From positions 1 through 64,000 of the forward strand of contig JABARV010000001.1 in NCBI GenBank assembly GCA_019186965.1: a stretch of DNA of 64,000 bases, read 5' to 3'. Each line of letters starts with the position of its first letter. The stretch's first letter is position 1. The stretch comes from Turneriella sp. Lineage in GTDB: Bacteria > Spirochaetota > Leptospiria > Turneriellales > Turneriellaceae. Both the position numbers and the translations under genes were made by a program. Positions 33,114 to 37,046 of this stretch are shown piece by piece. The notes under the pieces are model-generated. The model ran no database searches and had not been told where the DNA came from. It saw only the letters and a list, made by a program, of their open reading frames with translations.

Positions 33114-33437
33114 GGTGCCTCTATAGATTAAATACCAGAAAAGGCTCAAATTTTCTCACTTTTGAGAAAAAAATGCAGTTTTTTCAAAAAAATCATGATT
33201 TTTTTACTTAAATCGCTCGTAGGGATAGTTATCCCCAGCAGCTTGCATGGCAAAAGATTGCCGACATTCAAAAATGGCAATACAGTGGAACTTTCTGTAC
33301 AACACCATGGCTGGAAGGTTACAGCTAAGAAACAGATGCGGCGCACTAAAATTTTGCAATACTATTTGTCTTTTGGGCTAATTAGCTCCAAAGCACCTAA
33401 ATCGATTGACGTATCTAGAATTAAATAAAAAAATGCT
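33114..33437. other. Gap with two AT-rich hairpins, no clear gene
   Basis: Between the DUF1564-like gene and the flgM promoter I see a hairpin TTTTCTCA...TGAGAAAA near 33153-33170 and a perfect 20-bp palindrome at 33186-33205 (A7TCATGAT7 type). These may act as bidirectional terminators. An 88-codon plus-strand frame crosses this region but has low-complexity, non-protein-like composition. Confidence 0.45.
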
Positions 33438-33464
33438 TAACCCCTCTATATATCTTGCCGATAC
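33438..33464 (+). promoter_or_regulatory. Sigma-28 (FliA)-type promoter for flgM
   Basis: TAAC at 33438-33441 and GCCGATAC at 33457-33464 are separated by exactly 15 bases, matching the flagellar sigma-28 pattern TAAA-N15-GCCGATAA. It lies 77 bases upstream of the flgM ATG in the same direction. Confidence 0.68.
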
Positions 33465-33540: not shown

Positions 33541-33843
33541 ATGAATATAGACAAAATTAACAACGCTGGCCATATCCATAATGTGGCCAATACCAATACA
33601 GCAAAGCAACCAGCAACACAACCCGCTGGAATGGGGCAAGATAGCGTGACAATCTCACACGCAGCGCTCCAAGCACGCGAAACAGCGCTCATCGAAAAAG
33701 CGATGGCCTCTGCTAGTGACGTTCGGGTAGACCGTGTTCGCGAAGTTAAAGAAAAACTTGCTCGCGGTGAGTACGATAATCTTTCCAACGATGTTTTAAA
33801 CCACATCGCAGTGCGTTTAACTGCACAGATTAAAAACGGATAA
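33541..33843 (+). CDS. flgM: Anti-sigma-28 factor FlgM
   Basis: FlgM binds and inhibits the flagellar sigma factor FliA until the hook is complete. The 100-aa product has the family layout: a disordered N-terminus starting MNIDKINNAG, DSVTISHAALQARE, then the helical sigma-binding part VRVDRVREVKEKLARGEYD and VLNHIAVRL. The ATG at 33541 follows AGGAAG at proper spacing; the longer frame to 33406 crosses the promoter and was rejected. A sigma-28-like promoter upstream and a strong terminator downstream make it a monocistronic unit. Confidence 0.85.
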   Translation: MNIDKINNAGHIHNVANTNTAKQPATQPAGMGQDSVTISHAALQARETALIEKAMASASDVRVDRVREVKEKLARGEYDNLSNDVLNHIAVRLTAQIKNG

Positions 33844-33880
33844 ATATAAGGATTTTCGCCATCCTTGTACACACGTTGTG

Positions 33881-33905
33881 GGCGGCCTTGGCCGCCTTTT
33901 TTTTT
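33881..33905 (+). terminator. Intrinsic terminator after flgM
   Basis: GGCGGCC-TT-GGCCGCC is followed by nine T residues. It lies 38 bases after the flgM stop and 38 bases before the next ATG. Confidence 0.93.
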
Positions 33906-33942: not shown

Positions 33943-35106
33943 ATGCAAGGCATTAGCTGGGCACAATTTTCAGTACCAACACGCATCCAATTTGAAAACG
34001 ATTCGCTTTTCAAGGTGGGTAATTACGTGAAGCAATTTGGTTCACGCATTCTACTTCTCAATCTTAAAGCAGAGAACAAAAATCCATCCGAACTTACTGT
34101 ATTGAGAAATGGTTTAGCAAAGCACTCCGATGGAGTTATTTTATATGACGATCTTACAGAAGACCCAAATTCTGACCAAGTCGATTCAGCTGCATACTTT
34201 GCAAAAAAAGCACACGCGGATATTATTGTCGCTTTCGGTTCTTTGGAGACCTTTGCGACAGCGAAGCTTGTTGCGCTACTCGTTACTAATTCTGTTTTTG
34301 CTTCTGAACTTCTCAACGGGCGCGTAAAAGTCAAAAATGCTCCACTTCCTTTAGTAACAATTCCCGTCGAGCCTTCACTGGGCGAAGAACTTACGCCAAG
34401 CTTCACTATACGTGATTCTTCAGATGGACACAAAAAATATTTTGAACACGAACTATCTTTTCCTGTCGCAACTTTTTACGATCCCAAACTTTGCGAACAT
34501 TTAACCTCCGATAGCGCCGCACGCTTAGGTGGAGCGACTTTGGCGTACGCAATTGAAAGCCAGCTTTCTCCTAAGTCCAACCCTATTTCAAGTGCGCTTG
34601 CTTTGCGCTCCATTGAACTAATCCGCCGAAACATTCCACAGCTTTATAAAGATCCGAAGAACGAGAAACTTATATCGACAATGCTTTGGTCTGCCGCGAT
34701 GGTTTCTATTTCGGCGGTTTCTTCTCCTGTTGGTGTTGCATTCTCAATTGCAAGCGCCCTCAACGCGCACAGCCGCATGAACTTTTACGACGGCCTTTCT
34801 GTAATTTTGCCGCACGTTATGGAGTACTACTTAACCGCAGCTCCGGCGCAGTATATAAATATTGCGCGTTCTTTAGGAGAAGATGTAAAAGATATATCCG
34901 TTATTGAAGCGGCTATTAAGGCTGTTGAAGGCGTCAGGCGCCTTTTTTTAGAAGTCAACCTACCTACCCGTCTTTCAGAGTTTGATATAAAAAAGCACGA
35001 ACTCGAAGAAATTTCGCGTCTTGCCACGGGCTTTCCGCATTTGGAAAATGCACCGCGCATGCTTACGCGTAACGAGCTCGAATCAATACTTTTGGCGGCG
35101 TTCTAA
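33943..35106 (+). CDS. Iron-alcohol-dehydrogenase homologue lacking all metal ligands
   Basis: The 387-aa protein follows the group III (iron-containing) alcohol dehydrogenase fold throughout, for example AYAIESQLSPKSNPISSALAL and SVILPHVMEYY. But the positions that bind the metal in active enzymes (Asp, His, His, His) align with Ala198, Tyr202, Ser271 and Phe281. The dinucleotide loop GGGSxxD is FGSLET. It is therefore probably a pseudoenzyme with a structural or regulatory role. Its stop overlaps the next start (TAATG), so it is coupled to the secreted protein at 35106. Confidence 0.78.
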   Translation: MQGISWAQFSVPTRIQFENDSLFKVGNYVKQFGSRILLLNLKAENKNPSELTVLRNGLAKHSDGVILYDDLTEDPNSDQVDSAAYFAKKAHADIIVAFGSLETFATAKLVALLVTNSVFASELLNGRVKVKNAPLPLVTIPVEPSLGEELTPSFTIRDSSDGHKKYFEHELSFPVATFYDPKLCEHLTSDSAARLGGATLAYAIESQLSPKSNPISSALALRSIELIRRNIPQLYKDPKNEKLISTMLWSAAMVSISAVSSPVGVAFSIASALNAHSRMNFYDGLSVILPHVMEYYLTAAPAQYINIARSLGEDVKDISVIEAAIKAVEGVRRLFLEVNLPTRLSEFDIKKHELEEISRLATGFPHLENAPRMLTRNELESILLAAF

Positions 35107-35909
35107 TGAAAAAGATGGGAAAAGCCTTAACGCTCTTTTTTTTTCTTACGCCTATTTTGGCAAATTCTCCCGATCGCGCTTTTTGCGATAAAATTATTGG
35201 CGAGAACAAACGCTTTATCGACTTTATAAATATCTCCGTATCTAATTTTGCCAACATTGACCACCTTGCAGATTTTCGCGCTGCTTCGCTCGAACACTAC
35301 AAAGCAAATAGAGAATTTTTATCTGGCCACTACAAAGAAACCCACGCGCACATACGGAAGTCCCAATTTATTCTTAAAGATTTATACTATGCGGTATTAG
35401 AAAATTATTACCAAAAAGATGCGCGAGAGATGTTGGAGAGAAACTCCGCGATGATTATTGAAACCAAAGACGTACGTGCAAAACACTTAATGAGGTTAGG
35501 ATACCGCGACCTAAAAGTGGCGGATATCTATAAGCACAAAGGCTACAACCATAACATCCACCTTTATTCGACTAAGATATGGTTTTATATCGACGCCATC
35601 AAGTACGCACGGCAAGCCAAAAGATACGCGCTTTTAGCGATTATTGAAAGCCAAACTCCATACGCAGACAAAGACGACTTTAAACAACAAACGATAGACG
35701 ACCATTTTAGTAAGCCTGAAAAAGAATTGCAACGCGACTTCGATCGAGTACAAAACAAACTTATCAATTTAATCCACCGTAAATTAATCGTCGATAATTA
35801 TAATTTCTTTTTTCATTTGTACGACAACTATGGATACATCAATGCAAAAAAATCTAACCAGTACGACGACTTTGTAAAATCTATGACGACGCTACAAACA
35901 CCTCCTTAA
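35106..35909 (+). CDS. Secreted helical protein of unknown function
   Basis: A 267-aa product with a short signal peptide (KALTLFFFLTPILANS) and a highly charged, Tyr/His/Lys-rich helical body. Helices around residues 45-110 and 160-235 resemble a TPR- or four-helix-like arrangement, but I recognise no family. Its ATG overlaps the stop of the degenerate Fe-ADH gene, so the two are translationally coupled and probably work together. It ends 1 base before the convergent lpxD stop. Confidence 0.6.
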   Translation: MKKMGKALTLFFFLTPILANSPDRAFCDKIIGENKRFIDFINISVSNFANIDHLADFRAASLEHYKANREFLSGHYKETHAHIRKSQFILKDLYYAVLENYYQKDAREMLERNSAMIIETKDVRAKHLMRLGYRDLKVADIYKHKGYNHNIHLYSTKIWFYIDAIKYARQAKRYALLAIIESQTPYADKDDFKQQTIDDHFSKPEKELQRDFDRVQNKLINLIHRKLIVDNYNFFFHLYDNYGYINAKKSNQYDDFVKSMTTLQTPP

Positions 35910-35910
35910 A

Positions 35911-36966
35911 TTACTTATTTTCTTTTATATTTAATTTTTCTTCCAACGCCGCCACACGCTTTAAAAGCTCAGGCACGTACACCAACGAGCCATTAATTTT
36001 ATGCATCTCACGTGCGGGCCTTGCGGGAATGCCAAAATAAATAACGCCAGGCTCTGAATCGGATTGCGTCGCGCTCATACCCATAATAACACTCCCTTTT
36101 CTAAGGCGCACTTTACCTGAAATCGCCGATTGCCCCCCCAGCGTAACGTTATCCTCCACGATGACGCTCCCCGCAAGAACGGTGTTACCAGCGATGTAAA
36201 CGTATTTCCCCACTTGGCAGTTATGCCCCACGTGTACTTGGTCGTCAAATTTAGTAAAATCACCTATCGTCGTTGATTCAATCGTGGCTCTGTCGACAGT
36301 AGCACTGGCGCCAATTTCAACATGGTTTCCAATAACGACATTCCCAATTTGTGGAATTTTAAAACGCTCGCCGTCTTTATCGTAAAACCCAAAACCATCC
36401 GCGCCAATAACAGTTGAACTATGGATAATACAAAAATCACCTACCTCGCAATTGTATTTAAGTACAACGTTTGGATGGATTACCGTATTTTTTCCCACTT
36501 TGGTATTCGCTTCCAAAACAACATTGGGGTGGATTACCGCGTGTGCGCCTACTTTTGCGCCCTCTAAAATAACTGCTCCTTGCATTACAATTGCAGTTTT
36601 GTCGACATTCGCGTTAGGATGGATATACGCCTCTCCTTTTTGTGCGGCTACAGGTTGTGGAATTTTCTCGAACATTTCTAAAAGCCGAATAAAGGAAAGG
36701 CGCGCCGATTTTTCATCGACAACGATTGCTGTTTTAAAATTGGATGCAAGTGTTTGCGTCGTCAAAAGCGCGTCGCACTCAAGAGACTCGGGATGTGCGT
36801 TAAAATTTTTTTTACTCTCAACGAAATAGATATACCCCTTTTGCGGCGCTGCGTTGGGGTCGACCGCTCGGATAAGTTCTAAATCGCGCACACCAAAAAT
36901 TTCTAAATCGCCATTGCCCTGTACTTTGCCGTTTAGTTTACCAGCAAGTTCGCTTAATTTAACCAT
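35911..36966 (-). CDS. lpxD: UDP-3-O-acylglucosamine N-acyltransferase LpxD
   Basis: Third enzyme of lipid A synthesis: it adds the N-linked acyl chain to UDP-3-O-acyl-glucosamine using acyl-ACP. The 351-aa product has the N-terminal uridine-binding domain and, from about residue 115, left-handed beta-helix hexapeptide repeats (IHPNANVDKTAIVMQGAVIL and on). VHVGHNCQVG carries the likely catalytic His. The ATG at 36966 was chosen over a TTG two codons earlier. lpxA is separate, at 50.8 kb. Confidence 0.93.
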   Translation of the reverse strand: MVKLSELAGKLNGKVQGNGDLEIFGVRDLELIRAVDPNAAPQKGYIYFVESKKNFNAHPESLECDALLTTQTLASNFKTAIVVDEKSARLSFIRLLEMFEKIPQPVAAQKGEAYIHPNANVDKTAIVMQGAVILEGAKVGAHAVIHPNVVLEANTKVGKNTVIHPNVVLKYNCEVGDFCIIHSSTVIGADGFGFYDKDGERFKIPQIGNVVIGNHVEIGASATVDRATIESTTIGDFTKFDDQVHVGHNCQVGKYVYIAGNTVLAGSVIVEDNVTLGGQSAISGKVRLRKGSVIMGMSATQSDSEPGVIYFGIPARPAREMHKINGSLVYVPELLKRVAALEEKLNIKENK

Positions 36967-37046
36967 CTGCAACGGATGTAAAGGCCACTTGCCTTTGTCA
37001 AATATAAATAGGAACTCTCAAAGCCAAGATAGAGAGCAAATTAGAA

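Follow-up and report, generated by a model that had tools for sequence, protein, structure and literature searches.

A metal-less alcohol dehydrogenase homologue encoded beside flgM across the Spirochaetota: a putative non-catalytic accessory of the FlgM/sigma28 programme

The closest described relatives of the protein studied here are the iron-containing alcohol dehydrogenases (Fe-ADHs; PF00465/PF25137), such as E. coli FucO and Bacillus methanol dehydrogenase, with which it shares the fold, the length, the two-domain architecture and some motifs (the PHVM region). The family described below differs from them in having no Asp/His/His/His site, in the loss of the GGGS loop and of FucO Asp102, in its separate branch of the tree and in its flgM neighbourhood. 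Maleylacetate reductases (PcpE) belong to the same superfamily and are reported to work via His/Lys; they conserve several active-site His, unlike the present family. The slot directly after flgM is in other bacteria often held by the chaperone gene flgN, as part of the late flagellar unit, but the fold of FlgN is unrelated to that of the pseudoenzyme. In T. denticola, flgN sits in a flgN-flgK-flgL-fliW-csrA cluster (PMC9481697). ErcA of Pseudomonas provides a precedent for regulation by an Fe-ADH homologue (PMC12997753). It has the Fe-ADH fold and a proposed regulatory role, and its profile (NF041833) is among the best NCBIfam matches, although the scores of the window protein (121 bits) and of other members (92-157 bits) fall far short of its cut-off of 550 bits. 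Compared by profile score and published role, ErcA is also unlike the pseudoenzyme in that its regulon is ethanol oxidation and its neighbour a histidine kinase. A description of a family like the present one was not found in the searchable literature, either under flgM, spirochete and alcohol dehydrogenase or under the presumed number of the flgM neighbour in L. biflexa, most subscription papers being outside this search. We propose the family here as one derived from Fe-ADHs, with ErcA as its nearest functional precedent.

The window is the whole stretch of DNA that was analysed, 64,000 nucleotides from Turneriella sp. (Spirochaetota, class Leptospiria; contig JABARV010000001.1). The features of the locus within it are:

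33437..33464, + strand: sigma28-type promoter-like site upstream of flgM, TTAA-N16-GCCGATAC, with 10/12 consensus bases (sequence match)
33541..33843, + strand: flgM, anti-sigma28 factor (PF04316, E 9e-9; aligned with 18 spirochaete FlgM sequences)
33880..33905, + strand: intrinsic-terminator-like hairpin with a T run, in the spacer that separates flgM from the pseudoenzyme gene (consensus match only)
33943..35106, + strand: gene of the putative metal-less Fe-ADH-fold pseudoenzyme (FlgM-linked spirochaete family), 387 aa
34534..34548, + strand: codons 198-202, with Ala198 and Tyr202 in place of the first two metal ligands (FucO Asp196 and His200; alignment to E. coli FucO)
34741..34743, + strand: codon 267, Phe267 in place of the third ligand (FucO His263; alignment to FucO)
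34783..34785, + strand: codon 281, Phe281 in place of the fourth ligand (FucO His277; alignment to FucO)
35106..35909, + strand: gene of an OmpL37-family exported helical protein (NF047447, 220.6 bits, cut-off 150, E 1.8e-65)
35911-36972, convergent to the pseudoenzyme and OmpL37-family genes: lpxD-like ORF

Both Fe-ADH families of Pfam match the window protein above their gathering scores (PF00465, E 2e-26; PF25137, E 2.5e-25). Otherwise the only profiles matched were those of enzymes, such as lactaldehyde reductase and choline dehydrogenase, with scores far under cut-off; PHROGs, a library of viral families, yielded a weak match of unknown function and nothing else. The AlphaFold model, built with 54 relatives, has a pLDDT of 94 and a pTM of 0.91, and all of its top PDB matches are Fe-ADHs (TM 0.8-0.92). 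None of the four Asp-His-His-His ligands is present in the alignment to FucO. A first, sequence-only reading of this DNA had already claimed that all four positions are replaced, and placed Ala198, Tyr202 and Phe281 correctly; its third residue, Ser271, corresponds instead to FucO His267, which is conserved in the active site but is no metal ligand, and the third ligand position is Phe267. The GGGS loop (FucO 96-99), which that reading called degenerate, reads G-S-L-E. On the alignment and the predicted structure, the window protein is thus an Fe-ADH homologue with fold and length kept and without the metal site, and we infer that Fe-ADH chemistry would be impossible for it.

The gene occurs in 42 of the 48 genomes of the window's class, and in 30/30 of those with a completeness of 90% or more and contamination no higher than 5%. 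Named genomes, scanned by motif, gave 146 relatives; judging by their titles, the 80 that were kept belong to Spirochaetota, with Brachyspira and Brevinematales among them. A few relatives titled just 'bacterium', 'Caldithrix' or 'Hydrogenedentota' are probably misnamed MAGs. All four ligands are missing from every one of 40 class orthologues in the alignment to FucO. In the tree, one branch with support 100/98 parts 51 family rows, the window protein among them, from 23 ordinary Fe-ADHs (E. coli FucO, EutG, AdhE and YqhD, and spirochaete paralogues, two of these from the window's own genome). Asp-His-His-His is intact in all 23 references; on the ligand-less side the second or third site has no His in any of the 51 rows, Asp is kept at the first site in 16 and His is found at the fourth in two. 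Within the genus dN was 0.007-0.11, with synonymous sites near or at saturation, and dN/dS was 0.006-0.04 where dS was finite and unsaturated. These data support a phylum-wide pseudoenzyme family that is set off as a single group from ordinary Fe-ADHs and evolves under strongly purifying selection, so that the 'conserved pseudoenzyme' first suggested for this locus is borne out more widely than proposed, and the loss of the ligands extends to its relatives.

It was also considered whether an acid/base pair compensates at the first and fourth of the former ligand sites; this is unproven (Fisher p 0.004 by rows, with no signal in tree-independent pairs). The window's own genome also encodes an ordinary Fe-ADH with intact ligands (C6, 78400-80700; locus L212, 384-2300), whose C-terminus is extended by about 250 residues without a named Pfam match at the threshold applied. 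Long forms like it are present in Turneriella-like and other genomes of the class.

In the window, 99 bp separate the stop of flgM from the start of the pseudoenzyme gene on the same strand. The same arrangement, flgM directly upstream on the same strand with a stop-to-start gap of 4-202 bp, was found in 61 of 96 pseudoenzyme loci (about eight of the 96 being the same genome seen twice). When loci from further families, including Treponema-like ones, were centred on FlgM, the pseudoenzyme gene lay beside flgM in 42/51, which is not the rate of a random sample because this set was partly picked for family diversity after the coordinates were visible. In roughly 30 family-level groups the gene comes after flgM, on the same strand and within about 300 bp, with more groups indicated by coordinates alone, and almost all sampled spirochaete families with FlgM also carry the pseudoenzyme, usually encoded directly after flgM. 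The gene lies away from flgM in class family f6, in Brachyspira and in Brevinematales. The older gene order is rsmI-flgM-pseudoenzyme gene. On the far side of the pseudoenzyme gene the flanks turn over fully (cheW, larBC, bactofilin, OmpL37/lpxD and ilvC, names taken from reading sequences, not from profile searches) while flgM is constant. By gene order, the conserved partner of the pseudoenzyme gene is flgM and not the OmpL37-family gene. The flgM and lpxD-like neighbours had both been recognised in the initial reading; the secreted protein, which it took for the defining link, is adjacent only in the window's genus.

Two of these far-side arrangements recur. A bactofilin-like gene follows the pseudoenzyme gene at five loci of class family f5, and larB-larC-like genes or a convergent cheW-like gene come after it in many Spirochaetia MAGs.

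A member of the family at E 1e-5 was not found in FlgM-less genomes of Borrelia-like and T. pallidum-like type. Ten FlgM-less genomes gave no match, and in the others the best matches were canonical Fe-ADHs (in the Sphaerochaeta-like genomes all with ligands), save in G054 and G076, in which the family is present without a Pfam FlgM match; G076 is one of the Brachyspira-like genomes, a group with borderline scores for FlgM. The designations Borrelia-like, Sphaerochaeta-like and T. pallidum-like were assigned from gene content and group. All tested bearers of the family have a FliA match that passes the cut-off; the Borrelia-like and Sphaerochaeta-like genomes that were tested gave none, and it is known that Borrelia lack sigma28 (PMC11607428). 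Because one genome, the T. pallidum-like G082 (1.1 Mb, Treponema-like genus code), has FliA with neither a FlgM match nor a family member, the family appears to track FlgM rather than FliA. Some genomes with FlgM have no adjacent pseudoenzyme copy (G128, G137 and others), indicating that FlgM does not need the pseudoenzyme everywhere, and the dependence of the pseudoenzyme on FlgM thus seems to be one-way.

The mapped sigma28 promoter of T. denticola has TTAA at -35 and CCGATAA at -10 (PMC9481697). A strict 26-base sigma28 pattern had no match close to flgM in the window, and a looser pattern gave the site listed above, of which GCCGATAC is conserved at the same place upstream of flgM in the window's genus. 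Of 114 distinct regions, 92 have a T(A/T)AA-N14-16-GCCGATAA-like site with at least 10/12 bases in the 150 bp before flgM, compared to 36 of 1140 shuffles; the 114 regions are related and hence not 114 independent tests. In Brevinematales, where the pseudoenzyme gene is apart from flgM, TTAA/TCAA-N-CCGATAA is found at -57 of the pseudoenzyme gene itself (three related copies); the genes of class family f6 have no clear sigma28 site. Due to the terminator-like hairpin between the two genes, read-through or a second promoter would be needed in the window, and the pseudoenzyme gene may be transcribed there partly through flgM.

It could be that the order of flgM and the pseudoenzyme gene persists by inheritance. 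The protein would then be a conserved cytoplasmic one with an unrelated function, its place after flgM inherited synteny and its sigma28 link incidental. The rsmI-flgM adjacency is itself old and persists throughout Spirochaetota, also at loci that lack the pseudoenzyme gene, and the f6 members lie elsewhere in the genome without a clear sigma28 site, which both speak for this explanation. However, it is hard to reconcile with the complete turnover of the far-side flanks while flgM stays, with the window's genus, in which rsmI is gone and flgM remains, with the failure to find the family in most FlgM-less genomes, and with the sigma28-like site that the Brevinematales copies carry apart from flgM. 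We consider it unlikely, although it is the strongest of the alternatives.

That the protein is still an enzyme is likewise unlikely, and slightly more so. It could be a metal-independent, NAD(P)(H)-binding reductase or dehydrogenase of the Fe-ADH superfamily, resembling maleylacetate reductase, or have a new chemistry, as it has both the Fe-ADH fold and the cleft between the domains, the GG of the GGGS loop is retained in 42/51 family rows, and maleylacetate reductase depends on basic residues, His172 and Lys238 (PMC5741723). However, several active-site His are conserved in those reductases (PMC5741723), and their catalytic His/Lys cluster was not found in the family, there being no His at FucO sites 200 and 263. 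The third Gly of the loop is found in 3/51 rows and the equivalent of FucO Asp102 in none of the 51, and 32 of 41 class rows have Glu or Asp at the Ser position of the phosphate loop. The old metal site shows no new invariant polar cluster, and its residues vary between clades.

The sequence-only reading paired the pseudoenzyme with an 'unknown' exported protein. The overlap on which this was based is real, as the TAA of the pseudoenzyme gene (35104-35106) shares one base with the ATG of the next ORF (35106), and translational coupling of the two may exist in the window as a local addition. The exported protein, in contrast, can be named, since by profile it belongs to the OmpL37 family, well above the cut-off of NF047447. 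In Leptospira, OmpL37 is an elastin-binding surface protein (PMC2935396); membership is by profile here, and elastin binding is a property of the Leptospira protein. The OmpL37-family ORF adjoins the pseudoenzyme gene in 7/7 genomes of the same genus, with stop-start overlap or near-overlap, and lies 0.45-1.85 kb off in three genomes of the same family; elsewhere in the class no adjacency was found, including in members that have both genes. Because the adjacency is confined to the genus and looser in these three genomes, the pair is local, and the OmpL37-family gene is a lineage-specific neighbour outside the conserved unit. OmpL37-family genes are also multi-copy, and this one evolves faster than the pseudoenzyme (67-73% versus 86-88% identity). 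A functional pair of the pseudoenzyme and the adjoining secreted protein is therefore very improbable in spite of the tight arrangement in the genus. A decaying gene or a misalignment with the ligands at shifted positions can be dismissed, as nothing was found in favour of either, reading frames are open and stop-free in all relatives with dN/dS at most 0.04, and the same alignment recovers DHHH in the 23 references and shows His at neither site 2 nor site 3 of any family row.

The OmpL37-family neighbour was modelled as all-helical (pLDDT 70, nine sequences); in the literature OmpL37 is described as a transmembrane outer-membrane protein.

With moderate confidence, we favour the view that the pseudoenzyme is a non-catalytic accessory of the FlgM/sigma28 late-flagellar programme. 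As a cytoplasmic protein of Fe-ADH fold, it would be made when sigma28 is active, together with the late flagellar genes, and would act by binding another component of that programme. The likeliest partner would be FlgM or the FlgM-FliA complex; a late export substrate would be the alternative. Direct binding to FlgM, considered on its own, is a tentative proposal in which we have rather low confidence. Held more tentatively still, and somewhat unlikely, is a phylum-wide regulator, in which a pseudoenzyme that arose from an alcohol dehydrogenase would bind FlgM, alone or together with FliA, and adjust how tightly FlgM holds sigma28.

If this were true, such an adjustment could account for the atypical behaviour of FlgM in T. 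denticola. This FlgM is reported to stabilise FliA and to behave unlike its homologues, and loss of flgM reportedly lowers flagellin expression (PMC12655853); such an atypical FlgM leaves room for an extra component. Spirochaete FlgM departs from textbook FlgM, and the enzyme annotations of such spirochaete genes can mislead. A pseudoenzyme family that tracks FlgM through the phylum and stands behind a sigma28-type promoter-like site is a candidate for a missing component in the regulation of periplasmic flagella.
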